Origin: Longimicrobiales bacterium
GTDB lineage: Bacteria; Gemmatimonadota; Gemmatimonadetes; Longimicrobiales; Gaopeijiaceae
Assembly: GCA_028822645.1 (NCBI GenBank)
Contig: JAPKDG010000001.1
Coordinates: 1-64,000, forward strand
Direction: 5' to 3'
DNA: 64,000 nt
Made by a program: the position numbers and the translations under genes
Notes under the pieces: model-generated
What the model was told of the DNA's origin: nothing
What the model saw: only the letters and a program-made list of their open reading frames with translations
The model's database searches: none
In this document: positions 11,808-39,074 of the stretch, piece by piece
Layout of the letters: each line of letters begins with the position of its first letter
How positions within the stretch are numbered: the first letter of the stretch is position 1

Positions 11808-11866
11808 CCTTGTCCAGCAAAGTGCAATCTATCCTGCTAGTCTTTAATTCTTGTCAAAAGGAGTTC

Positions 11867-13240
11867 ATGGAGTTCACAGCCGAAGAACTGTGGTCAAAGG
11901 TTCTAGAAAATGCTCGCACACAGATTCAAGGGCAAACCTACCGTACCTGGCTGGCTGACACCTCAGCAAAAAGCCTAACCGACTCCGGCCTTATTGTGGA
12001 AGTCGCCAGCCAATTTCACGTTGAATGGATTAGTGAAAAATATGGAAAGGTGCTGACCGAGGTTGCGCAAGGCGTTGTAGGTAGGACCTTAACTCTCCAG
12101 TTTCACCCTCGATCACCCTCGTCTCCCTTGGCTATTCTTGAGCCAGAGCCAGAGGAAATGCCATCGTTGTTTTCCCCCCAAAACTTAAATTCCTCTCCTT
12201 CCGGCAAGCCGGCCCTAAACGAAAAATATTTGTTCTCTCGTTTTGTGGTCGGCAACGACAATCAGCTGGCTTCCGCTGCCTGCAAGGCTGTGGCCTCTAA
12301 TCCCTCTCGAATGTATAACCCGTTATTTTTATATGGTGGGGTTGGACTTGGGAAAACTCACTTAATGCATGCTATTGGGAATGAAGTGCTTAGCAACAAC
12401 CGCCTTGCCAAGGTTGCTTATGTAACCACCGAGAAATTCACCAACGAACTGATAATGGCCATTCGGGATGGATCTACCGCGAACTTTAGAGCTCGTTATA
12501 GAGAAAAAGACCTTCTTCTGGTGGATGACGTACAGTTTCTTAAGGGCAAAGAACGCACCCAGGAAGAATTTTTTCACACCTTTAACACCCTCTATGATGC
12601 CCACAAGCAGGTTGTGTTGACCAGTGATCGACCACCCAAGGAAATTCCCGGATTGGAGGAGAGGCTTATTTCCCGTTTTGCTTGGGGACTTGTGACAGAC
12701 ATTATGCCGCCGGACTATGAAACCCGACTGGCTATTCTGAAGAAGAAGTCCGAAGACGAAGGACTAGATCTAGATGAAGGTGTTAGCGACTTTATCGCTC
12801 GCTCCTGCACTTCTTCGATTAGGGAGCTAGAGGGAGCCCTTATAAAACTCATGGCGTTCGCTTCTGTTGCCAACAAGAGCATCAGCGTGGACCTGGCCAG
12901 AACGGCCCTAAGGGGGACTTTTGGATATGGTCCTGGGTCCGCAGGAGGGCTTCTGACCCCCGAAATGATTAGGCAGACCGTGGCCCTGCGCTGGAGGGTC
13001 AGCGAGGAGGCACTTGCCTCCAAAAGGCGAAGTAAAGATTTGGCGGTTCCCCGCCAGGTAGCCATGTATCTAATAAAAACCCTCCTAGACTACCCACTTG
13101 TCGCCATAGGTAGGGTTTTCGGAGACAGAGACCACTCAACGGTCATTCATTCTATAAAAAAGGTAGAGCAAACCCTTGAAAAAGATTCCACTTTTCGACG
13201 AATCGTTGAGGCTGTCCAAGATGAACTTAAAGAGAAATAG
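11867..13240 (+). CDS. dnaA: Chromosomal replication initiator DnaA
   Basis: 457 residues from ATG at 11867. The frame stays open up to a TTG at 11810, but AAGGAG precedes this ATG and domain I then begins normally (MEFTAEELWSKVLENAR). Domain I is followed by a short variable domain II. AAA+ domain III begins NEKYLFSRFVVGNDNQLA, with Walker A GGVGLGKTHL and Walker B LLLVDDVQFL. Domain IV carries the DnaA signature GDRDHSTVIHSIKKVE. ATP-DnaA binds boxes in the adjacent oriC and melts the unwinding element. Confidence 0.97.
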   Translation: MEFTAEELWSKVLENARTQIQGQTYRTWLADTSAKSLTDSGLIVEVASQFHVEWISEKYGKVLTEVAQGVVGRTLTLQFHPRSPSSPLAILEPEPEEMPSLFSPQNLNSSPSGKPALNEKYLFSRFVVGNDNQLASAACKAVASNPSRMYNPLFLYGGVGLGKTHLMHAIGNEVLSNNRLAKVAYVTTEKFTNELIMAIRDGSTANFRARYREKDLLLVDDVQFLKGKERTQEEFFHTFNTLYDAHKQVVLTSDRPPKEIPGLEERLISRFAWGLVTDIMPPDYETRLAILKKKSEDEGLDLDEGVSDFIARSCTSSIRELEGALIKLMAFASVANKSISVDLARTALRGTFGYGPGSAGGLLTPEMIRQTVALRWRVSEEALASKRRSKDLAVPRQVAMYLIKTLLDYPLVAIGRVFGDRDHSTVIHSIKKVEQTLEKDSTFRRIVEAVQDELKEK

Positions 13241-13484
13241 GTCTGTTTATAACTCCACGGAAAACCTTTGTTTTTCTATTGGGTTTTCCACAAAAACTTT
13301 CATAGCAATCTTCTCCACTTTTTATCCACACTTTATAAAAACACCTAACCCCAACGTTTAAATACACAAAATAGGCTTTTCAACAAAAAGACCATTACTA
13401 CTACTACTATATTTATTATATAGTGTTATTTAGAATAAGTATGTATTGTAGATAACTACTCCCCATCAACTCTCTGGAGGATGA
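13241..13484. other. oriC: Replication origin oriC (DnaA boxes, DnaA-trios, AT-rich unwinding element)
   Basis: The dnaA-dnaN gap holds a perfect DnaA box TTATCCACA at 13322-13330, the variant TTTTCCACA at 13284-13292 and a weaker TTTTCAACA at 13377-13385. Directly after the last box comes GACC and then four CTA repeats (13398-13409). On the complementary strand these read as 3'-GAT DnaA-trios. They run into an AT-only/AT-rich tract (13410-13440) suited to strand opening. This box - GC - trio - AT-tract order matches the basal unwinding system described for Bacillus. Gene strand and base composition also switch here. Confidence 0.88.
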
Positions 13485-14621
13485 ATGGACTGTATAATCA
13501 CCCGACAAAACTTTCATGCTGGATTAACAGCAGTGTCAGCAGGAATTCCCACCAAAACGACCTTGCCAGTACTGTCGAATATCCTTTTTGACGCGGTGAG
13601 CGATGGGGTATGGATGATCGGTACAGACTTAGATGTAGTTATAAAGAAATGGATACCTGCAGAAGTAAAAGCTCCCGGTGACTTAACGGCTCCAGGTAAA
13701 AAGCTACAGGAAATCGTAAAAGAGCTTCCAGATAAAATGGTGGGGATGAAATCTAGGGGTGACCAGCTAGAGCTTTCATGTGGTAAAAGCAACTTTAAGT
13801 TAAACGGCATACCCTCCCATGAATTTCCAACACTTCCCGAAATGGATTTTAGTTCGGCCTGGAAAGTAAAAGGTGAGGATCTTCATAGTTTAATTAAGAA
13901 TACTTCTTTTGCTGTGTCTACCGAGGAAAGCAGACCTATTTTAAATGGGGTTTTGTGGGAAATTAGGGATGGACAAATGCGAATGGTAGCAACAAATGGA
14001 CACCGTTTAGCTAGAATGGGGGTTCCCGCCAAAGTAGAAGGTGCGCCCAATCAAGATTTTATAGTTCCGCCATTAGCCTTACAACAAGTACAGAGACTTT
14101 TTGATAGGTCAGACGATATAGAAGTGTCAAATAGTGGTAACCACCTAGGCTTCCGAACAAAAGACACTGAAGTATACACAAGACTAATAGATGGAACCTA
14201 TCCAAACTACGAGCAAGTACTACCTAAGGATAACGATAAGGTCGCTGTGGTTAACAAAAGTGAATTGGCAGCATCCCTAAGGAGAATGGCCGTAGTCGCC
14301 AGTGATCAGACCAAAAGAATAAGAATGTCTTTTACCAAGTCAGACCAAGGTGAAGGGAGTGTCCACCTCAGTGTGTTAACTCCAGACCTAGGGGAGGGGA
14401 GCGACGAGATGGAACTTATAAGCTATGAAGGAGAAGGTTTGGAAATAGGATTCAATGCAACCTACTTCCTAGAGGTCTTGAGATATATGCCAACAGAATC
14501 AGTACAGATGGCATTTAGTGCTCCAGAAAAAGCAGCTACGATAGTCCCAGATTATCAAAATAAAGAAAAAAAAGCAGAAGACTATATTTGTCTTGTAATG
14601 CCCCTTAGGCTTATAGACTAG
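13485..14621 (+). CDS. dnaN: DNA polymerase III sliding clamp (beta subunit)
   Basis: 378 residues, standard length, with the three repeated clamp domains. Recognisable segments are ISAGIP-like AVSAGIPTKTTLPVLSNI near the N-terminus, ATNGHRLA in the middle, LIDGTYPNYEQVLP, and a C-terminal end CLVMPLRL. It tethers polymerase III to DNA. CTGGAGG at 13474-13480 precedes the ATG by 4 nt. recF and gyrB, which often follow, are absent; the 3' end overlaps convergent pyrE by 11 bp. Confidence 0.96.
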   Translation: MDCIITRQNFHAGLTAVSAGIPTKTTLPVLSNILFDAVSDGVWMIGTDLDVVIKKWIPAEVKAPGDLTAPGKKLQEIVKELPDKMVGMKSRGDQLELSCGKSNFKLNGIPSHEFPTLPEMDFSSAWKVKGEDLHSLIKNTSFAVSTEESRPILNGVLWEIRDGQMRMVATNGHRLARMGVPAKVEGAPNQDFIVPPLALQQVQRLFDRSDDIEVSNSGNHLGFRTKDTEVYTRLIDGTYPNYEQVLPKDNDKVAVVNKSELAASLRRMAVVASDQTKRIRMSFTKSDQGEGSVHLSVLTPDLGEGSDEMELISYEGEGLEIGFNATYFLEVLRYMPTESVQMAFSAPEKAATIVPDYQNKEKKAEDYICLVMPLRLID

Positions 14622-15177
14622 AGCGCTTTTGTTGTTGTAAAAGATGGGTTTTAGTAAAAATTGCCTCAAAGGGTAGTTCTTTCTCAAGCTTAGCCCTTCC
14701 CCCTTCTTCTCTGTCCACCAAACATAAAACTCCGACAACACACATGTCCGCACTTCTAATAGCTTCGATAGCTTGAAAAGCGCTCTTCCCTGTAGTAACT
14801 ATGTCCTCCAGTACAACTACATTTGCGCCAGTCGGCACACCTCCTTCGATTTGTCGCCCAGTTCCGTGCCTCTTGGCCTCTTTTCTGACCGTAAACCCAT
14901 CTAGGGTTGGGCCAGTGTGCCCAAAGGAGTGATGAGCGATAGCGTAGGCAACGGGATCGGCGCCAAGGGTGAGACCTCCTACATGTGTAGGGTTCCAACC
15001 TGTTTCTAGGATGCGGTCATAGCAGACTTTTCCAATTAACGTCTGACCTTCAGCTGTCATTGTGGTTTTTCTGGCGTCAATGTAGTAGGACGAAGTTGCA
15101 CCACTTGAAAGGGTGAAACTCCCTGTTTTTACAGATCGCCCCAAGAGAAGGCTCTGTAGTCGAAGTACCTCATTCAT
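14611..15177 (-). CDS. pyrE: Orotate phosphoribosyltransferase
   Basis: 188 residues. The PRPP-binding loop VVVLEDIVTTGKSA lies at about residues 120-133, with FTLSSGATSSYYIDARK at 21-37 and GGLTLGADPVAYAIA at 67-81. It converts orotate and PRPP to OMP in pyrimidine synthesis. The Shine-Dalgarno sequence GAGGAGA lies inside the last codons of the upstream thioesterase (3-bp gap), so the two are likely co-translated. It is convergent with dnaN, overlapping by 11 bp. Confidence 0.95.
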   Translation of the reverse strand: MNEVLRLQSLLLGRSVKTGSFTLSSGATSSYYIDARKTTMTAEGQTLIGKVCYDRILETGWNPTHVGGLTLGADPVAYAIAHHSFGHTGPTLDGFTVRKEAKRHGTGRQIEGGVPTGANVVVLEDIVTTGKSAFQAIEAIRSADMCVVGVLCLVDREEGGRAKLEKELPFEAIFTKTHLLQQQKRSSL

Positions 15178-15180
15178 ATA

Positions 15181-15636
15181 TTATCTCCTCACGCGTGTTT
15201 TAGGCCCCTCTGTAGCTCCGAGGACCTCCCTACTGTGCTGTTCTGCTATTTCGGTGGGCATTCTACAAGGAGAGCCATCTTTGGAAACCCAAACAGCGAC
15301 AACTCGAGCCTTGGCTACAAGCACGGACTTGCCAGCTCTCTCAGAAGATTCTGTTCTGGCTTCTTGGCAGAAGGTCAGGCTAGTTCTCTTTAGTTTCTCC
15401 AGGACAGTCTTAATCTGAAGAGTGTCTTCAAAAAAGACTTGAGACAGGTAGTCAATTTCTAGGCGAACGACGTATATCTTAAGCCCGTTGTCCAGCATTT
15501 TCCGGCGGGAAATCCCGTAAGAGTCCAAGGTGTCGAACCTGGCTTTCTCGAAGTAGTTGAGATAAACGGCGTGATTCACATGTCCGTAGGAATCTAGCTC
15601 GTAGGAGCGCACCTTAAGTACGGTTTCGGGCGTCAT
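15181..15636 (-). CDS. YbgC/4HBT-type hotdog acyl-CoA thioesterase
   Basis: 151 residues from ATG at 15634-15636, beginning MTPETVLKVRSYELDSYGHVNHA. The frame is open for 69 more codons upstream, but that part overlaps the PAS gene and has no thioesterase features. The 4HBT hallmark is DSYGHVNHAVYLNYFEKAR with the catalytic Asp; the rest follows the hotdog strand pattern (VVRLEIDYLSQVFFEDTLQIKT). It probably hydrolyses an acyl-CoA or acyl-ACP; the substrate is not evident. It sits 7 bp after the PAS gene and 3 bp before pyrE. Confidence 0.88.
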   Translation of the reverse strand: MTPETVLKVRSYELDSYGHVNHAVYLNYFEKARFDTLDSYGISRRKMLDNGLKIYVVRLEIDYLSQVFFEDTLQIKTVLEKLKRTSLTFCQEARTESSERAGKSVLVAKARVVAVWVSKDGSPCRMPTEIAEQHSREVLGATEGPKTRVRR

Positions 15637-15643
15637 TATGTTT

Positions 15644-16681
15644 CTAGTGGTGTGCCGACGGGGGCTGGAAGAGGAACTCAGTTTGGTTGGAGGAAGGGCG
15701 GGGCTTCCTTCGTCTGGATACAATTCTAGCTTTTCGGGTGGGAGTGGCCTGACGGCCCGAGGACAAGCTGGAAAACAGGTCTCGCTGCTTTTCAGGCCTG
15801 CCAGGTTGCAAGGAGTAGGGGAGGACCCCTGGGCGTGTCTCAAGAGTGAGTGAAACCCCCTCCATAGAAGGTGCGATCAAGACATCAACCCATGGCCCAC
15901 CAAGCTCCGGCTGCCGTCTGACTTGGGCTGTGCCACCACCACGAAGAGTTTTTCGGATTTCTGCTACGAGGGTGGGATCTCCGAGCCATCCTGCGGTTGG
16001 GGAAAGAGGGTGGCCAAGAAGGTGCCTCTCCTCGACTCCTTTTCCCAACAAGGCCAGAGCCCCAGGGCTAAGGGCGGTGGGACACAAGTGCTTGTCTATG
16101 TGGACAATCCGAACTTGGGTGGCAGAGAAGACTCCATATATGGGGGAGACCTTAGCGGGCCGTGAAGGCAGGATTGTTTTGGCTGTGAAGGTGTTTTCCT
16201 GGCTGAGCTCAGTGACGTCGACAAAGTATTCAATTCTTATCCCTTCTAGGTTTCCTCCTTCAAACAAAGCAGTTGTATGAAGCAATCTCAGGGGTTCAGA
16301 GCAATGGCTAACGCTAAGGTTGACTTCTAGCGGGGACTGATTGCCGAAGACAGGGCCTTGGGCGAGGTTGGCTTCTAACTGGCCAGGCTCCTCTATGCGT
16401 GCTGACAGTGATTTTCTGAACAGGGTCGTGATACGCCTTCCTACAACCTCCTGGGGGCTGATGCTAAAAAACTTACAAAAAGCGTCGTTACACCCCAGGA
16501 CATGGCGATCGAGGCCGATTACTAGGGTTCCAACAAAAGGACCTTGTGGTTGTATCAAGTCTTGGAGGCACCCTGCAGGGACTTGAGTTTCGGGGCCAGC
16601 AACTTTATCGGACTTTTTGAGCCGATAGAAGCAGAATGCGACAAGCCCAAAAAGGGACCCGGCGAGAATCAGTGGGTCCAC
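15644..16681 (-). CDS. Membrane-anchored PAS-domain protein without output domain
   Basis: 345 residues from a GTG start. One N-terminal TM (about residues 3-19) is followed by a PAS domain at about 48-160 (LVIGLDRHVLGCNDAFCKFFSISPQEVVGRRITTLF). A second, more divergent PAS-like region spans about 185-285, and a Pro/Arg/Ser-rich tail follows. I see no histidine-kinase, GGDEF, EAL or HTH domain. It may be a sensor that works through protein contacts. The start codon sits inside an 18-bp perfect palindrome (16674-16691). It is first in an apparent PAS - thioesterase - pyrE unit. Confidence 0.7.
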   Translation of the reverse strand: MDPLILAGSLFGLVAFCFYRLKKSDKVAGPETQVPAGCLQDLIQPQGPFVGTLVIGLDRHVLGCNDAFCKFFSISPQEVVGRRITTLFRKSLSARIEEPGQLEANLAQGPVFGNQSPLEVNLSVSHCSEPLRLLHTTALFEGGNLEGIRIEYFVDVTELSQENTFTAKTILPSRPAKVSPIYGVFSATQVRIVHIDKHLCPTALSPGALALLGKGVEERHLLGHPLSPTAGWLGDPTLVAEIRKTLRGGGTAQVRRQPELGGPWVDVLIAPSMEGVSLTLETRPGVLPYSLQPGRPEKQRDLFSSLSSGRQATPTRKARIVSRRRKPRPSSNQTEFLFQPPSAHH

Positions 16682-16691
16682 TAGTGGACCC
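16674..16691 (-). promoter_or_regulatory. 18-bp perfect palindrome spanning the PAS-gene start codon
   Basis: GGGTCCACTAGTGGACCC is perfectly self-complementary. On the minus strand the GTG start (16679-16681) lies in one arm and the Shine-Dalgarno-like AGGGG (16690-16694) overlaps the other. In RNA the arms would pair, burying both the ribosome site and start codon. It could also be a protein-binding operator. The rest of the 16692-16932 gap shows no RNA gene or ORF I can support. Confidence 0.5.
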
Positions 16692-16932
16692 CTAGCCAGC
16701 AGGCTGGGACAATGGCGAGTCCAGTTAAATCTACCAATGGAAGCATGCTCCCCCTCCCAATCTCGTCTTGCTTAGATGAGTCGGAATAGATTTATAACTC
16801 CTATCAGTCCATATGACCAGAAACGCGAGCTGTGATCAAGGTAAGCTTGACGGTAAGAACCCTGTTAATGCAAGGAAAACTATGGAAACAAAGGGCAGTA
16901 AACACGTGCAGCCTGGTGCCAAAATGCCGCCC

Positions 16933-17883
16933 TTAGGCAGAATCGGAAACCATAATATTTAGGGCACGCGGAACCACCTCTACAACGACTTCGGCTTCGG
17001 TCGCTTGCCACACTTCTCCGTCAATTTCATACTTGGGAGGAAGGGAAAATTTAGCCCTAAAGGTACTGGCTGTTTGCTGTTTGACCGAGGAAGACTCACC
17101 ATGTCTGCCTTTGGCTGCGAGACCAAACAGCTGCATTCGCCTAAATGGACTAGCATTGCCTATGACGCAGGCGTCTAACAGCCCGTCGTCCAGTTTCGCG
17201 TCAGGAGCGATTGGAAAAGAACCCCCAAAAAAGGGGCCATTAGAAATGGTCAGCATAAGATGTTTGCCGTGCACGGGTATGTCTGACCCACTCAGGTCGA
17301 TGTCGATTCCTGGAAACCACAGCAGATTTCTAAGGGCGGCTGATTTGTACAGGAGCTCTCCACGCAAGAAAAGGGCCCTGGCGGCAGTTTCAATACAGGC
17401 AACATCAAATCCGAATCCTATAAGGTTCAAAAAGTGCCGACCCGCCACAGGGGTAGTGCCATCTGGGCTCCCATAGCTTACGACTCGCCCGACGTCGACA
17501 GTTCGCACTTTTCCTTTTGCTAAGGCCAAGACTCCGTCCTCGGGGCTCTCCACGTCGACACCAAAATTTCTGCCGAAATCATTGCCCGTTCCAGATGCGA
17601 GGATCCCGAATAATAGATCTGGTCTGCTCGAACAAATAATTCTGTCAGCCACATTGCTCCAGGTTCCATCTCCACCAACTGCTATTATAAAATCGAATCC
17701 GTTTTCTATAGCTTGGTCCACCAATTTTGCCTCTTGTCCCGGATACTCGGTGACGACGTGTTCAAATTTGGGCAAATGTCTCTCCAGTAGTCCAAGAAAC
17801 ATATTTATTCTCTTCAAGCTGCTACGTCCACGCCCAGCCGCTGGATTAAAGAGAACAAAAGGACGTCGTATGGGTTCAGACAT
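16933..17883 (-). CDS. Diacylglycerol/sphingosine-kinase-type lipid kinase
   Basis: 316 residues of the DAGK catalytic family (DgkB/YegS/SphK). FNPAAGRGR (residues 12-20) and the nucleotide loop GGDGT (70-74) are followed by SGTGNDFGRNF (97-107), with DDGLLDACVI in the C-terminal beta-sandwich. These enzymes phosphorylate lipids with ATP at the inner-membrane face. The substrate cannot be told from motifs: diacylglycerol, a long-chain base and a ceramide are all used within the family. It is third in a run with the SPT-like enzyme and ADC-like protein, 36 bp after the latter, which makes a sphingoid-type substrate worth considering. Confidence 0.87.
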   Translation of the reverse strand: MSEPIRRPFVLFNPAAGRGRSSLKRINMFLGLLERHLPKFEHVVTEYPGQEAKLVDQAIENGFDFIIAVGGDGTWSNVADRIICSSRPDLLFGILASGTGNDFGRNFGVDVESPEDGVLALAKGKVRTVDVGRVVSYGSPDGTTPVAGRHFLNLIGFGFDVACIETAARALFLRGELLYKSAALRNLLWFPGIDIDLSGSDIPVHGKHLMLTISNGPFFGGSFPIAPDAKLDDGLLDACVIGNASPFRRMQLFGLAAKGRHGESSSVKQQTASTFRAKFSLPPKYEIDGEVWQATEAEVVVEVVPRALNIMVSDSA

Positions 17884-17919
17884 AGGCGATCCTACTTAGG
17901 TGTAGTGTCAACCCCACGC

Positions 17920-18591
17920 CTAAAGGACCTCAAGCGGACTAAAAATTTCTACTCCGTTTCTCATCCACTGCTCTCGGAAAGGGCGGTCGGGTAGATCGTC
18001 CAGCATTATACCACTAGTCATCTCATGTCCAAACAGGACTAACGAGCCCTGTTCAAATTCGTGTTCACTGTAGCTTGCACCTTTCATGGTGATATCTGCT
18101 TTGAAGTTTTTGCAATCATCGGACATGAAAGAATGGAATAAAAGTTCTGTAGGGTCAAAAGTGTGACCTGTGGTGGTTAGCTCAAGTATGGGCTCCCCTC
18201 CTTCTTCAACTCTTACGTGCATCTTTTTTTCACCCTCGGTAAAGGCTACGTCTATATCCTTCATCAGGTGAGGCAATTTCCAGCGATCAATTCCCTGAAG
18301 CCGACCCAGTTTAGTGCTGGTGGCTACCATAAAGGGATAAAGGGCTGCCTTAGGAAGGCGTTCTCCTAGAGTGACTAAAGGAGGCACTAAGACCGAAAGC
18401 ACTAGCTCTTGATAGGGGCCAGCATCCCCTTTAAAAAAGTCAAAAACAGAGACCGAAAGCACACTTGATTCTGGGCGTCTTTCTAGGGGTTGGAGCGCTC
18501 CCGGGAGAAGCTGCCGAGCATTCTCGGTAGCTATCTCAAAGAGACAGCTTAGCCCCTCTTTGAAGTAATAGTGTCCGGTTGACTCGGACAT
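17920..18591 (-). CDS. Acetoacetate-decarboxylase-like fold protein (tentative)
   Basis: 223 residues. The segment DFFKGDAGPYQELVLSVLVPP (split about 51-71) resembles the ADC superfamily strand pattern, and GRLQGIDRWKLPHLMKDI (97-113 region) aligns with the family's G-x-x-W-x-x-P-K segment. The lysine expected after the proline is His here, with Lys two residues before the proline, so decarboxylase chemistry is doubtful. No signal peptide or TM. The start overlaps the end of the SPT-like gene by 43 nt, implying coupled expression. It could be a hydrolase or binding protein for a lipid intermediate; family assignment is by eye only. Confidence 0.45.
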   Translation of the reverse strand: MSESTGHYYFKEGLSCLFEIATENARQLLPGALQPLERRPESSVLSVSVFDFFKGDAGPYQELVLSVLVPPLVTLGERLPKAALYPFMVATSTKLGRLQGIDRWKLPHLMKDIDVAFTEGEKKMHVRVEEGGEPILELTTTGHTFDPTELLFHSFMSDDCKNFKADITMKGASYSEHEFEQGSLVLFGHEMTSGIMLDDLPDRPFREQWMRNGVEIFSPLEVL

Positions 18592-19904
18592 ATACCATAC
18601 CTTTCCAGAACCTTGCTGATAATTTTAGCGCCCTCACTAAGTTCTTGGCGAGAATGAGTAGAAGAGATCGACATTCTGAATCGGGATTTGTGCTTAGGTA
18701 CGGCAGGGTATTGCACTGGGTTTAGGTATATCCCTTGTCGGAGCAATTCTTCCCCTATCTCAAAAATTCTAGCGTCATCTTGTATGAGGATTGGAATTAC
18801 CTGTGACTCGGACTGTCCAATAGGAACACCTGCTTCTCTTAGTAGTTTTTGCATGTATATAACGTTTGACCAGAGCCCCTCTCTAAGCTGAGGCTCTTCT
18901 TCGAAAATCTCTAATGCTTTCAGGATGCCCGCTGTGACCACGGGAGAGAGCCCGCAGGAAAAGAACCGAGAGCGGGAAAACCCACGCAAGTAGTTAATAA
19001 GCTGTTGGGATCCTGCCAGAAAGCCTCCTTGTCCACCGAGGCTTTTGGAAAAGGTGCCAACATGTAGGTCGATTTCATCCTCCAGACCGAAATGTTCGGC
19101 AACTCCTCTTCCGTTTTGCCCGTAAATAAAGGTGGAGTGGGCTTCGTCAATTAGAATGCGAGCACCGTAACGCTTACATACATCAACAATGTCTGGTAAA
19201 ACGGCCACATCTCCGTCCATAGAATAAACGCCTTCCACAAGGACTAATTTTTTCCCAGTGAATTTCTTAAGTTTGCGCTCCAGATCTTCCACTTTGTTGT
19301 GTCGAAAAAACCTGCTAGTTGCTTTAGAGAGAATCATGCCGTCCACTAGCGAAGCGTGTGCATACTGATCGGCCACAATAAGGTCGCCCGACCGCATGAG
19401 GCCTGCTATAACCCCAACGTTTACGCTGTAACCAGTGGGAAAGAGTAGCACAGCTTCTTTATTTTTAAACCGGGCCAATTGTTCTGATAGCTCCACGTGT
19501 ACTTCCATTGACCCGCTAAGGATAGGGGACCCAGAGGCTCCATTGCCATAAATTTCTACTGCCTTTACCACAGCCTCTTTTACCTCGGGCCGATAAGATA
19601 GGCCCAGGTAGTTATAGGAAGCAAAATTCAATAAGTTTTTATGGATTTTTCCTGTTTTGGTATTACGGATATCTACCCGTGTTCCAGGTTCTCCTTGCAT
19701 GGGTAATCCGTATAAGTAGTAACCAGCGGGCTCAGCGTCTTTCCACCATTCGTCGAAGGGGCCAAGCATGTCGAAGGGGTCGTTGCCCGAACCAAAATAG
19801 AAATTGGTATAATCGTATTGCATCGCCAGTGGAAGAGGCTTCCCAGCCTTGTCTGCGAACATTCCCCGTCCAGCTTTTCCAGAAGTATGTTTGTCCTCCA
19901 CCAT
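18549..19904 (-). CDS. Alpha-oxoamine synthase, serine-palmitoyltransferase-like
   Basis: 451 residues, fold-type I PLP enzyme of the AOS family. It has NFASYNYLGLS (93-103), GSRxxSG-like GNGASGSPILSG (120-131), YAHASL (181-186), DEAHS (253-257) and the PLP lysine in GTFSKSLGGQGG (K287). The TFSKS context is the SPT style rather than that of BioF or KBL. An extra N-terminal segment of about 65 residues rich in Tyr/Trp/Phe precedes the domain. These enzymes condense an amino acid with an acyl thioester, losing CO2. The adjacent lipid kinase makes long-chain-base formation plausible. Alternatives are a BioF-like or CqsA-like enzyme. Confidence 0.8.
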   Translation of the reverse strand: MVEDKHTSGKAGRGMFADKAGKPLPLAMQYDYTNFYFGSGNDPFDMLGPFDEWWKDAEPAGYYLYGLPMQGEPGTRVDIRNTKTGKIHKNLLNFASYNYLGLSYRPEVKEAVVKAVEIYGNGASGSPILSGSMEVHVELSEQLARFKNKEAVLLFPTGYSVNVGVIAGLMRSGDLIVADQYAHASLVDGMILSKATSRFFRHNKVEDLERKLKKFTGKKLVLVEGVYSMDGDVAVLPDIVDVCKRYGARILIDEAHSTFIYGQNGRGVAEHFGLEDEIDLHVGTFSKSLGGQGGFLAGSQQLINYLRGFSRSRFFSCGLSPVVTAGILKALEIFEEEPQLREGLWSNVIYMQKLLREAGVPIGQSESQVIPILIQDDARIFEIGEELLRQGIYLNPVQYPAVPKHKSRFRMSISSTHSRQELSEGAKIISKVLERYGICPSQPDTITSKRG

Positions 19905-20000
19905 CCCGCCTCCTAGGCGCCTATAAGACCTCGGTTGCTAGGATAAAAGCTATTAAAGTACAGAACAGATGGGAACCCGCGGGCCACAACCAACAAAAAA

Positions 20001-20732
20001 CTAAGGGATTGAAGGCCCAATAAACTCTGCTATGAACTCTGAGGCTGGGTCTCGAAATAGGTCTTCCAAGCTTCCCGACTGAACGACACGTCCGTTATCA
20101 AGCGCGTAGACCGATGCTCCCAGTGCTACAACATCTCTTACGTCATGTGTCGCTATTATGGACGGTCGGCCAAACATCTTGAGACGTTCTGATAGAAAGA
20201 TTCGAACTGTACGCCTGGTGGTAGCATCCAGGGCTGCCAGTGGCTCGTCTAGGAGCAGTAATTCCGGCTCAATAACAAGTGCACGTGCAAGGGCGACCCT
20301 TTGTTGCTCCCCCCCCGAAAGGCCTTCTGCGGGCCTATGGGCCAGGGCTGAGCAACCGAGTTCTCCAAGGATGTCCTGCGCCCTGCTGTGGCGCTCCGAG
20401 CGTATAAGCTTGCCGGGCCCGGTAGACAGGCCAAAGGAAACGTTGTCCAACACGTTTAGGTGGGAGAACAAGCTGTATCCTTGAGGCAAATAGCCAATGC
20501 GTCGCTGCTCCATTGGCGTGTGGATACCTGTCTGGGTGTTTACCAACGTTCTGGTTCCCAGGACAAATTCTGCAAGGTCGGGAGCTATTGCTCCTGCCAG
20601 AAACCTAAGGAAAGTTGTTTTGCCGCTGCCATTAGGCCCTATGATTGCAATGGGGCCGCTGTCTCCCCTTAGGGCTACTTCGAGTAAAAACGTACCAACG
20701 GAAGCGCGCACGGAAGCGTGCCAGCTACTCAA
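20001..20732 (-). CDS. modC: Molybdate/tungstate-type ABC transporter ATPase (short ModC)
   Basis: 243 residues. Walker A GPNGSGKTT (about residues 34-42), Q-loop in LPQGYSLFSH, signature LSGGEQQRVALARAL, Walker B LLLLDEPLAALD and the H-loop in ATHDVRD. It lacks the C-terminal Mop/TOBE domain of E. coli ModC (about 350 residues), ending right after the nucleotide-binding domain, so oxyanion feedback must come from elsewhere. The start overlaps the modB stop by 4 nt. Confidence 0.85.
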   Translation of the reverse strand: MSSWHASVRASVGTFLLEVALRGDSGPIAIIGPNGSGKTTFLRFLAGAIAPDLAEFVLGTRTLVNTQTGIHTPMEQRRIGYLPQGYSLFSHLNVLDNVSFGLSTGPGKLIRSERHSRAQDILGELGCSALAHRPAEGLSGGEQQRVALARALVIEPELLLLDEPLAALDATTRRTVRIFLSERLKMFGRPSIIATHDVRDVVALGASVYALDNGRVVQSGSLEDLFRDPASEFIAEFIGPSIP

Positions 20733-21544
20733 GGTAAGGTTCTCTTGATGGCTGTCGTGACAAAAGGAAGCAGTTGAAGTCCAGCCAGCAGTGCTGCGCC
20801 AGCTGCAACTAAAACCAAGGAAAAAACCACTGCGAGCTGCACGTCTGACTCTAATGCAGAAAAAATCGCAAGGGGCATAGTTTGGGTTTCAGCGGGCATA
20901 TTTCCGGCGAAAAGCAAGGTGGCTCCAAATTCTCCGAGGGCCCGAGCCCAGGCCAGAGAAGCTCCAGTGACGAGGCCTGGCATTGAGAGAGGAAGGGCAA
21001 CGCGGAAGAAGGATGCAACGGAAGAAGAGCCCAGCGTTCGAGCTACTATCAGTGTATCTGGGTCGACCTTCCGGAAAGAACTTGCCGCTGCCTGGACGAA
21101 AAAAGGCGAAGAGACAACAATTTGGGCGATGACCACAGCCTCTGTAGTGAAAGGTATAGCCAGTCCTAGGTTCCCTAGGACTGGCCCTAGTATTCCTTGG
21201 CGACCGAACGTCTGTAAAAGCGCAACGCCCAGGACCGCTGGAGGGATCACGATTGGCAGTTCGACTAGCAGTGAAATCATTTTGGTTGCTCGTGATTGGG
21301 ACGAGGCTATCCACCAAGCGAGAGGGGTTCCCATAACTATGATAAGGCCCAGGCTTACCAGAGTCGTTTTTAGGCTTAATAGGAGAGCGGGAAGAAACAT
21401 GGGATGACCTAGGCCGGCCAGGACTTCTTCTGTGGAGGCGGATAGAATTAGAGCGATCAGCGGAACTGTCAGCAAGCCCAACAGGGTCGCTCCCAACAGA
21501 CCAGCCAGGGTTGAAATAGGCGAAAAGCGACTCCTCTGGTTCAC
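20729..21544 (-). CDS. modB: Molybdate/tungstate-type ABC transporter permease
   Basis: 271 residues, with about six TM segments. The EAA loop is recognisable as AASSFRKVDPDTLIVARTLGSS followed by RVALPLSMPGL. ELPIVIPPAVLGVALL is the hallmark of ModB/CysT-type permeases. Overlaps of 4 nt on both sides (modA 21541-21544, modC 20729-20732) mark a tightly coupled operon. Confidence 0.87.
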   Translation of the reverse strand: MNQRSRFSPISTLAGLLGATLLGLLTVPLIALILSASTEEVLAGLGHPMFLPALLLSLKTTLVSLGLIIVMGTPLAWWIASSQSRATKMISLLVELPIVIPPAVLGVALLQTFGRQGILGPVLGNLGLAIPFTTEAVVIAQIVVSSPFFVQAAASSFRKVDPDTLIVARTLGSSSVASFFRVALPLSMPGLVTGASLAWARALGEFGATLLFAGNMPAETQTMPLAIFSALESDVQLAVVFSLVLVAAGAALLAGLQLLPFVTTAIKRTLP

Positions 21545-22335
21545 TCTGAGACCAGAAAGCCATGGCTGTGGAGTATTTGTCGCCCATCGGCGGACAAGAC
21601 GTAATTTATGAACTGTACAGCTTGGGGTGTATGGGCAGAGCGGGTCAGCACTCCTATGGGATAACGTACTTGGGCATTCAGCTTCTCGGGGATTGCCACC
21701 ACCTTTAACTTGTGAGACGAAGCCTCTGTCCGATAAACAATGGCTGCATCGGCCTCGCCCATTTCCACCTTGGCTCTGACGAGTCTAACGTTGTTTTCAA
21801 GAGAGACAGTTTGAGCCTGTACGGCGGTTACAAAGTCTTCACCCAAGTGTTGCCGGGCACGCTCCAGGACCTGGAGCGTATAGATGCCAACAGGGACGTT
21901 ATTAGACCCGGTGACAATCAGTGAAGCTTTTTCTAGGTCTCTGAAGTGCTGAATGTCGGCAGGGTTAGCGGTGGGCACAATGACAACGAGCTCATTGCTG
22001 GCAAAGAACTGACTTCCGGACATATGCCCACCACTTATGAGTGCTTCAGTATGATCCTGGTTGGCTGAAGCAAAGATATCTACTTGGGCGCCTTGTTCTA
22101 TCTGAAACCGCAAGACTTGGCTTCCAGCAAAGGTCATGCTTACGTCCATTTCAGGATTCGCCTCTTCAAAGGCATTCTCGATACTTCTAAAGGTCTCGGT
22201 TAGCGAAGAAGCAGCGTAAATCACCAGGCTGGTTTTGGCTCCGTCCCCTCCTTGCTCTTGGATACAGCTAGCTGCCAGCAAGCTGGCTATAAATGTAGAG
22301 ACCAGGGGGATAGCTCGAAGGATGATGCTTTGCAT
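21541..22335 (-). CDS. modA: Molybdate/tungstate-binding lipoprotein
   Basis: 264 residues. Signal peptide with lipobox LAASC (Cys about 24). The mature part begins with the ModA pattern LVIYAASSLTETFRSIENAFE and continues with FAGSQVLRFQIEQGAQVDIFASANQ, matching the oxyanion-binding loops. Lipid anchoring points to a diderm or membrane-tethered receptor. Discrimination of molybdate from tungstate or sulfate is not possible from sequence. It lies 3 nt after the regulator gene. Confidence 0.88.
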   Translation of the reverse strand: MQSIILRAIPLVSTFIASLLAASCIQEQGGDGAKTSLVIYAASSLTETFRSIENAFEEANPEMDVSMTFAGSQVLRFQIEQGAQVDIFASANQDHTEALISGGHMSGSQFFASNELVVIVPTANPADIQHFRDLEKASLIVTGSNNVPVGIYTLQVLERARQHLGEDFVTAVQAQTVSLENNVRLVRAKVEMGEADAAIVYRTEASSHKLKVVAIPEKLNAQVRYPIGVLTRSAHTPQAVQFINYVLSADGRQILHSHGFLVSE

Positions 22336-37820: not shown

Positions 37821-39074
37821 ATGCGGGCAGTCGCTTTCGATGTAAGCATCCCGGGGTTTGTCTTGGCGAAGACGGCAGGACAAATTACCGACTCGGCTTT
37901 CTTCGGTTCTTTGAGTGGCCTAAGAATACAGGACCTTCCGGAGCCGGATATTCCTGGCCCTGATTGGGTGAAGGTAGAAGTGGTACAGAGCGGTATTTGC
38001 GGAAGTGACATTGGTTGCCTGACCTACTCTGCAAGCCCATCCATGGAGCCGTTTGGGTCTTTTCCAGCCGTTTTGGGTCATGAAATAGTGGGAACAGTTA
38101 AATCGTTAGGGGGAAACGTGGACGGGCTTGCCCGTGGCCAAAGAGTTACAATAGACCCAATGATATCTTGTGCGACCCGAGGATATGGTCGTTCCGATTT
38201 TTGTCCGTCTTGTTCCAGGGGCCTCCATTGTACTTGCGAGAGAGCTGGAGAAAAAGGACTGACACTCTTAAATGGAAAGCATATCTCTCCAGGAGTGACA
38301 ATCGGTTATCACAGCGACCTGCCAGGAGGATGGGGAGAGGTGTTGCTGGCCCATAAATCCCAGGTGTTTGCCGTTGACGATAATGTTTCAGATGACATGG
38401 CTGTTCTTGTAGAGCCACTTTCCATTGCCATGCATGCTGTGTTAGGAACTAAGCCACATCCGGAATCCTCTGTGATGGTTCTAGGAAGCGGCACTATCGC
38501 TTTGGCAACTATTTGGGCCTTGAGGGCCACTGGGCATCAAGGGCTAATCCTCAGCCAAGTAAAAAGAGTGCATGAGAAAAGGTTGGCCCAGAAAATGGGG
38601 GCTACGGAGGTTGTTTTCCCTGGCCAAAGTGCTATCGAGGCACTGTTAAAAACAGGTGCCAAGGCCTACAAGCCTATCATTGGCAAAGAGGTTTTCTCTG
38701 GAGGAGGATTTAGTGCGGTTTATGACTGCGTAGGGAATTCTCAGAGCTTACAACAAGCTATGAAGTTTGCTTCCCCTAGGGGAAAGTTGGCGATGATTGG
38801 TTGTGTCGGGAAAACTAGAAATATGGATCTGACTATGTTGTGGGCCAGGGAACTGAATGTCCAAGGGTTTGTGGGTTATGGACTGGAAGAATGGGAGGGA
38901 GGGAAGTGCCACACTTTTGAAGTGGTACAGAGTCTTCTTGGATCGACGGGAAATTCTATAGAAGAGATCATTACACATAAGTTTTCCTTGGAAGATTACT
39001 GTCAAGCTCTGAAGACCTCTGGAAACCACAGAGAAAGTGGTGCTGTTAAAGTGCTTCTTCGGGCTAAGAGGTAG
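37821..39074 (+). CDS. Zinc-dependent MDR alcohol dehydrogenase-like protein
   Basis: 417 residues. Catalytic zinc ligands are seen in QSGICGSDIG and LGHEIVG. The structural-zinc lobe is unusual, with Cys in DPMISCATRGYGRSDFCPSC then CTCERAG. The Rossmann segment is VMVLGSGTIALATIWALRATG, and GGGFSAVYDCVGNS follows. Substrate unknown; it is longer than typical sorbitol/threonine-dehydrogenase relatives. It is in one transcription run with the thioesterase and peroxiredoxin. Confidence 0.85.
   Translation: MRAVAFDVSIPGFVLAKTAGQITDSAFFGSLSGLRIQDLPEPDIPGPDWVKVEVVQSGICGSDIGCLTYSASPSMEPFGSFPAVLGHEIVGTVKSLGGNVDGLARGQRVTIDPMISCATRGYGRSDFCPSCSRGLHCTCERAGEKGLTLLNGKHISPGVTIGYHSDLPGGWGEVLLAHKSQVFAVDDNVSDDMAVLVEPLSIAMHAVLGTKPHPESSVMVLGSGTIALATIWALRATGHQGLILSQVKRVHEKRLAQKMGATEVVFPGQSAIEALLKTGAKAYKPIIGKEVFSGGGFSAVYDCVGNSQSLQQAMKFASPRGKLAMIGCVGKTRNMDLTMLWARELNVQGFVGYGLEEWEGGKCHTFEVVQSLLGSTGNSIEEIITHKFSLEDYCQALKTSGNHRESGAVKVLLRAKR

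Follow-up and report, generated by a model that had tools for sequence, protein, structure and literature searches.

Gene organization at the locus

We analyzed a stretch of 64,000 nucleotides (the window; positions 1 to 64,000 of contig JAPKDG010000001.1, assembly GCA_028822645.1, our contig C22) from a Longimicrobiales bacterium, a marine member of the Gemmatimonadota represented by a 2.04-Mb metagenome-assembled genome (MAG). On its minus strand lies a run of three genes that encode an alpha-oxoamine synthase (AOS) resembling serine palmitoyltransferase (SPT), a protein resembling acetoacetate decarboxylase (ADC), and a lipid kinase of the YegS/diacylglycerol kinase (DAGK) family. These and one possible further member are as follows.

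18549..19904, minus strand: AOS, an SPT-like fold type I pyridoxal phosphate (PLP) enzyme, 451 aa
17920..18591, minus strand: ADC1 paralogue with the ADC fold, lacking the Schiff-base lysine, 223 aa
16933..17883, minus strand: YegS/DAGK-family lipid kinase with a GGDGT motif, 316 aa
37821..39074, plus strand: zinc alcohol dehydrogenase of the medium-chain dehydrogenase/reductase (MDR) family, related to threonine 3-dehydrogenase, possible member only

The three core genes had been proposed at these coordinates in an original prediction made from the sequence without database searches, and they were borne out by the open reading frames and by Pfam and NCBIfam models, which gave Aminotran_1_2/AOS for the first, a sub-threshold ADC match for the second, and DAGK_cat plus YegS_C for the third. 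The kinase scored above the cutoffs of both TIGR00147 (130 versus 118.65 bits) and DAGK_cat (84 versus 23.6 bits). The 43-nucleotide overlap between the AOS stop and the ADC start, also noted earlier, was present and is identical in close relatives; the overlap measures 10 nucleotides across most of the rest of the family and 4 nucleotides in the f3 Gemmatimonadota, the Gemmatimonadaceae, one Acidobacteria MAG, and Eisenbacteria (G, C, L, and f handles denote our genomes, contigs, loci, and families).

The synthase belongs to a clade of its own

The PLP motifs of an AOS are all present in the window protein: the internal-aldimine lysine K287 (nucleotides 19044 to 19046) within the SPT-style TFSKS sequence that the original prediction had pointed to, the Asp and His of the DxAH motif (D253 and H256), and the stacking histidine H183. 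The best PDB match was the SPT of Sphingobacterium (3a2b), and the protein fell below all three SPT equivalog cutoffs (NF047600, 371/640; NF047599, 325/500; NF047603, 258/670). A maximum likelihood tree of 74 rows, in which eukaryotic and alphaproteobacterial SPT were not included, placed the ADC-linked AOS proteins in one clade with support of 100/98. Its sister clade (100/99) consists of lone AOS genes from Aminicenantes, Acidobacteriota, Spirochaetota, and a Massilibacteroides MAG. Outside both were SPT 3a2b, a proteobacterial-type SPT from genome G008 that exceeds the NF047599 cutoff (624/500), BioF, KBL, ALAS, and a SulA-like protein. This phylogeny was one of the checks that had been suggested for the gene, and judged from sequence and tree placement the AOS is not BioF, KBL, ALAS, or a canonical SPT and belongs to a separate clade.

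Two sequence features mark the clade. The first is an FSC[A/G] signature, which contains C317 in the window protein (nucleotides 18954 to 18956); cysteine is found in all rows of the ADC-linked clade, and the sister clade carries FSC too, at a position held by alanine in SPT, lysine in SulA, asparagine in KBL, and threonine in BioF. The second is the motif YDYTNFYFGSG near residue 30 of the ADC-linked proteins, upstream of the ordinary AOS N-terminal helix. An aromatic N-terminal extension of about 65 residues had been described for the window protein; an extension does exist, but its conserved new part is only this motif, and residues 1 to 29 are variable.

AOS genes were also seen in other settings. 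The lone genes of the sister clade (L097 to L104) share the FSC signature. A different AOS gene adjoins an MDR dehydrogenase related to that at 37821 to 39074 in an arrangement like that of KBL and TDH (G060:C6, G064:C64, G074:C181, G062:C87, and other f2 genomes), and on a conjugative plasmid of Bacteroides xylanisolvens, which also has a MAC/perforin-domain gene, an AOS gene is followed by a TetR regulator (L184:2974-4209).

The ADC-fold partner has lost the Schiff-base lysines

When the ADC-like protein was searched against the PDB, as a single sequence and as a profile, no ADC was matched, nor was a comparison of profiles with three ADC sequences, a set of low diversity, successful. The assignment was resolved by a structural model with an ADC fold (pLDDT 96), for which all significant Foldseek matches were members of the ADC family (24 chains at E <= 2.2e-9, the top near 1e-11, probability 1.00). 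Active site residues were compared with those of Clostridium acetobutylicum ADC, the sequence of which was checked against 3bh2. Among 43 family members, the column of K115 holds His in 33, Tyr in 9, and Phe in 1 and is never Lys; that of K116 holds hydrophobic or aromatic residues, likewise never Lys; and the equivalent of E76 is kept in 43/43. The window protein has H108 at the K115 position and E62 at the E76 position. A change at the catalytic lysine had been predicted, and it extends to the whole family and to the neighboring lysine. Because both lysines are lost, the known ADC decarboxylation mechanism is unavailable, and we rejected Schiff-base decarboxylation as the function of this protein. 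It shares the fold and the E76 equivalent with the ADC superfamily (ADC, MppR, and Swit_4259) and differs in the loss of the Schiff-base lysine pair. It may, we speculate, bind, shield, or tautomerize a reactive 2-amino-3-ketone.

The ADC-like proteins fall into two groups in a midpoint-rooted tree, ADC1, which is AOS linked and includes the window copy (support 99/94), and ADC2, which is linked to the kinase or to a Tam41-like gene and includes a second copy on contig C62 of the same genome. In genomes that separate AOS from the kinase, an ADC accompanies each of the two, and therefore both loci appear to be linked in one pathway.

Conservation of the gene set across genomes

Each protein was searched against 98 Gemmatimonadota genomes, including that of the window. 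The families found are sharply bounded. Members of the AOS clade score above 500 bits, the next best protein 320, and the clade occurs in 34 of the 98 genomes: 29 of the 58 that make up the window's family, and 5 from a sister family. The ADC-like gene accompanies it in 34/34; three further genomes, all incomplete assemblies, have the ADC-like gene without AOS. A member of the kinase clade is found in 33/34, the exception being G035, which is 89% complete. The association of AOS with ADC greatly exceeds chance, with a Fisher p of 3e-23 over all 98 genomes and 3e-13 within the family, values that are nominal since the genomes are related. Presence is patchy inside one family, which argues for a unit that is gained or lost together.

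The same order recurs well beyond this group. AOS, ADC, and kinase directly follow one another in MAGs of the Gemmatimonadaceae, Acidobacteria, and Eisenbacteria, with both junctions overlapping by 4 nucleotides in three loci (L092, L094, and L096), and the order is also found in MnTg04 and in Gammaproteobacteria MAGs. Co-occurrence of the three genes, raised as a test of the original prediction, thus holds. The gene set is genuine and conserved over several phyla; its function, in lipid synthesis, is what we infer.

A wider set with Tam41-type and CDP-alcohol transferase genes

Adjoining the AOS-ADC-kinase run in Gemmatimonadota, Acidobacteria, Eisenbacteria, and Gammaproteobacteria is a divergent trio that encodes a PlsC-family acyltransferase, a protein of 300 to 340 aa, and a CDP-alcohol transferase; a Latescibacterota chromosome likewise has AOS together with the divergent genes. 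In genomes with two loci, these three genes adjoin the ADC2 paralogue. The window's own genome has ADC2, the 300- to 340-aa protein, and the CDP-alcohol transferase together on contig C62, and an acyltransferase homologue at C29:13134-13898.

The 300- to 340-aa protein gave no match to Pfam PF09139 in the C62 copy and 16.9/24 bits in the L092 homologue, the best E value among 21 members being 4e-4. A profile search of the PDB returned Tam41 first (6ig2, E 0.012), and Foldseek with its model (pLDDT 87) returned bacterial Tam41 with CTP at the top (7ecd, E 5e-9, probability 1.00) and also mitochondrial Tam41. The Tam41 motif YGS...hDhhhxVxD is present, and the profile match is collinear. Judged by this modeled fold, the protein is a putative Tam41-type nucleotidyltransferase that shares fold and motif with the mitochondrial and bacterial CDP-diacylglycerol synthase and differs in having about 15% identity and a PF09139 score below the cutoff. 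Since a housekeeping CdsA is also encoded in the genome, the Tam41-like gene is an extra one. The CDP-alcohol transferase has the DxxDGxxAR...GxxxDxxxD motif and is nearest to archaetidylinositol-phosphate and phosphatidylinositol-phosphate (PIP) synthases, below their cutoffs. AOS co-occurs with the Tam41-like gene in 27 genomes and with the acyltransferase in 23, and the gene immediately following the kinase in Acidobacteria, Eisenbacteria, and the f3 Gemmatimonadota is a homologue of the MDR dehydrogenase. In one genome (G000:C98:7247-9090), a CDP-alcohol transferase gene lies directly beside that of myo-inositol phosphate synthase (MIPS).

Around the window copy (11810 to 22335), the three genes are set within a dnaA-dnaN-pyrE-thioesterase and molybdate-ABC neighborhood. 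An ADC2-kinase locus elsewhere (e.g., L078) has a similar neighborhood, so that the position of the locus is partly retained and it is the pair of AOS and ADC1 that has relocated. We rejected as members of the system the 4HBT thioesterase and PAS genes 3' of the kinase, because they are not conserved together with the other genes; the thioesterase is part of the dnaA-dnaN-pyrE neighborhood.

Canonical ceramide loci occur in some of the same genomes

Genomes G008 and G043 carry a canonical locus with an AMP-ligase, an acyl carrier protein (ACP), an SPT, a 391-aa CerS-like gene, and a further DAGK-family kinase, a gene set that matches the one described for Caulobacter (PMC9386255). The relevant loci are as follows.

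L200:7916-13700 (G008:C35) and L201: canonical ceramide-type locus, in genomes related to the window's family; SPT above the NF047599 cutoff, 391-aa CerS-like protein without Pfam match
L195:2182-4190 and L196:6800-8808: kinase overlapping an extended short-chain dehydrogenase/reductase (SDR) and divergent to a Tam41-like gene (with a CDP-alcohol transferase in L196), no AOS or ADC

G008 carries both the AOS-ADC-kinase set and the canonical locus, and at least seven genomes (G005, G008, G015, G067, G071, G073, and G083) combine the AOS set with an SPT-like gene that has a CerS-like gene close by. Because both occur in the same genomes, the AOS set and the canonical SPT/ceramide locus are distinct, in agreement with the earlier suggestion of a route different from described bacterial ceramide clusters. 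CerS and CerR homologues had been named as genes to look for: none of CerS, CerR, AcpR, and AasR was seen at the AOS locus (the last three were not sought genome-wide), and the window's genome gave no match to the CerS-like gene of G008, itself identified by context.

In G008 and G043, a second kinase and a Tam41-like gene have an extended SDR (OleD/HpnA type) as a neighbor, with a CDP-alcohol transferase too in G008. The SDR is similar in class to the epimerase/dehydrogenase CC_1164. The arrangement at L195 and L196 is an alternative version of the head-group module. The G008 and G043 neighborhoods suggest, short of proof, that this module can act on sphingolipids whichever of the two backbone sources they come from.

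A proposed pathway and its alternatives

We propose that the three window genes belong to a dispersed pathway that makes a sphingolipid-like phospholipid, a reading to which we assign a probability of about 0.6; its substrates, the order of its steps, the role of the ADC-like protein, the reductase, and the head group are what we infer. The AOS would condense a long-chain acyl thioester with an amino acid to form a 2-amino-3-ketone; serine is the likeliest amino acid, since a free hydroxyl is required by the kinase that acts afterwards. The ADC-fold partner, in coupled translation with the AOS, would bind or process this ketone without Schiff-base decarboxylation. A reductase, perhaps the MDR alcohol dehydrogenase in some lineages, and the PlsC-family acyltransferase would yield a ceramide-like lipid. 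The YegS/DAGK kinase would phosphorylate the lipid, the Tam41-type nucleotidyltransferase would convert the lipid phosphate to a CDP-lipid, and the PIP-synthase-like CDP-alcohol phosphotransferase would add a head group, possibly inositol phosphate.

The original prediction had the genes making and phosphorylating a long-chain amino-ketone or sphingoid-like lipid. The three genes are indeed conserved together, and a sphingoid base may be a product, but the end product is likely a head-grouped phospholipid rather than a phosphorylated base, because the system is larger and includes the Tam41-type protein, the CDP-alcohol phosphotransferase, the PlsC-like acyltransferase, and a second ADC. A fuller version, which we put forward tentatively and at somewhat less than even odds, is that the long-chain base or ceramide itself is CDP-activated by the Tam41-type enzyme and receives a head of the inositol-phosphate type, that the repurposed ADC-fold protein is an obligatory partner of the new AOS clade, and that the pathway exists in at least five phyla independently of the known ceramide genes.

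Several observations weigh against the proposed pathway. The cysteine at the SPT alanine position is unlike every characterized AOS compared, and the acyl and amino acid substrates of the AOS are unreadable from sequence. The Tam41-like gene is missing in 7/34 AOS genomes (G071, G073, and G083 of f3, plus G004, G020, G032, and G035), and G041 and G043 have kinase and Tam41-like genes without AOS; therefore both may act on another lipid. The acyltransferase gene is also missing in some carriers. The MDR dehydrogenase is near universal in the window's family with or without AOS, and unlinked, and the window's copy was rejected as a specific partner. MIPS, present in the window's genome and in 94/98 related genomes, does not specifically support inositol as the head group and was rejected likewise.

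Among the alternatives, the AOS could be a divergent SPT in the usual ceramide and ceramide-kinase set, as the match to 3a2b and the pairing of SPT with a DAGK-family ceramide kinase in Caulobacter (PMC11324152) would allow. This is improbable given the three missed equivalog cutoffs, a clade apart from both 3a2b-type and proteobacterial-type SPT, the separate SPT-like gene with its CerS-like neighbor in at least seven AOS genomes, and the lack of a CerS-like match in the window's own genome.

Equally unlikely, in our estimate, is that two modules are neighbors for other reasons, AOS and ADC making a non-sphingoid amino-ketone or small metabolite and the kinase, Tam41-like protein, and CDP-alcohol transferase making an ordinary glycerophospholipid. 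AOS-ADC1 and ADC2-kinase-Tam41 are indeed unlinked in two-locus genomes, and in G041 the genes for the kinase, Tam41-like protein, and CDP-alcohol transferase occur with neither AOS nor ADC. However, the two loci are connected through the ADC paralogues, of which one accompanies AOS and the other the kinase; kinase and AOS co-occur in 33/34 genomes; a single operon-like array exists in several phyla; and for glycerophospholipids the cells already have CdsA and other CDP-alcohol transferases.

Synthesis of a capnine-type sulfonolipid from cysteate is very improbable, even though cysteate acyltransferases are relatives of the AOS (match to 28eh). SulA has Lys at the diagnostic K281 position (PMC9304779), whereas all rows of the AOS clade have Cys, here Cys317, on which ground identity with SulA was rejected; moreover, with a sulfonate head already present, kinase and CDP activation would be unneeded. 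A housekeeping role as BioF, KBL, or ALAS is the least credible and was rejected: despite general AOS similarity, the TIGR00858 score (357.6 bits) does not reach the cutoff of 426.45, the three enzymes lie in other clades without the N-terminal motif and FSC signature, and, contrary to the earlier concern that the gene might be a BioF with biotin genes elsewhere, no bioB over the cutoff was found in the window's genome or in the AOS carriers tested, except G067.

Relation to known systems and significance

The nearest described system is the ceramide phosphoglycerate pathway of Caulobacter crescentus (PMC11324152), which shares with the proposed pathway an AOS-type entry enzyme, a DAGK-family kinase, a proposed nucleoside diphosphate (NDP) activation of the phosphorylated lipid, for which Caulobacter has a protein that may produce NDP-ceramide, and a CDP-alcohol transferase. 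Its components are SPT, the ceramide kinase CpgB/CC_1160, CC_1161 with a CDP-diacylglycerol-synthase-like domain, and the CDP-alcohol transferase CC_1159, whereas the set described here has a separate AOS clade, a predicted activation of the Tam41 rather than the CdsA type, a PIP-synthase-like transferase, and an ADC-fold pair plus a PlsC-like acyltransferase where CerS, AcpR, and AasR would be. The inositol lipid cluster BT_1522-1526 of Bacteroides thetaiotaomicron shares a PIP-synthase-type CDP-alcohol transferase, with MIPS in the genome (PMC9246714); there, phosphatidylinositol is made on diacylglycerol and an AUR1-like enzyme then transfers the phosphoinositol onto ceramide, whereas here the lipid itself would be CDP-activated. 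The dihydrosphingosine kinase PG1348 of Porphyromonas gingivalis is sphingosine-kinase-like and acts on a sphingoid base (PMC9045371), and is not known in an AOS-ADC-Tam41 set. The earlier suggestion of an undescribed system stands in part: our literature searches, of partial coverage, found no paper on AOS with ADC, on AOS in Gemmatimonadetes, or on the AOS-ADC-Tam41 set, but an SPT-linked DAGK-family kinase is itself already known from Caulobacter (PMC11324152).

If the proposed pathway is correct, it would be a second independent bacterial way to make and head-group sphingolipid-like phospholipids, and it would give a proposed function to a lysine-less ADC-fold family and to a Tam41-type protein other than the housekeeping CDP-diacylglycerol synthase. 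SPT-like matches in metagenome surveys, such as one of 38 phyla in the Black Sea (PMC11334938), may mix AOS chemistries. The presence of MIPS in 94/98 genomes suggests that inositol lipids may be common in the Gemmatimonadota, and the genes described here would serve as markers in lipidomic work on uncultured members of the Gemmatimonadota, Acidobacteria, Latescibacterota, and other groups.

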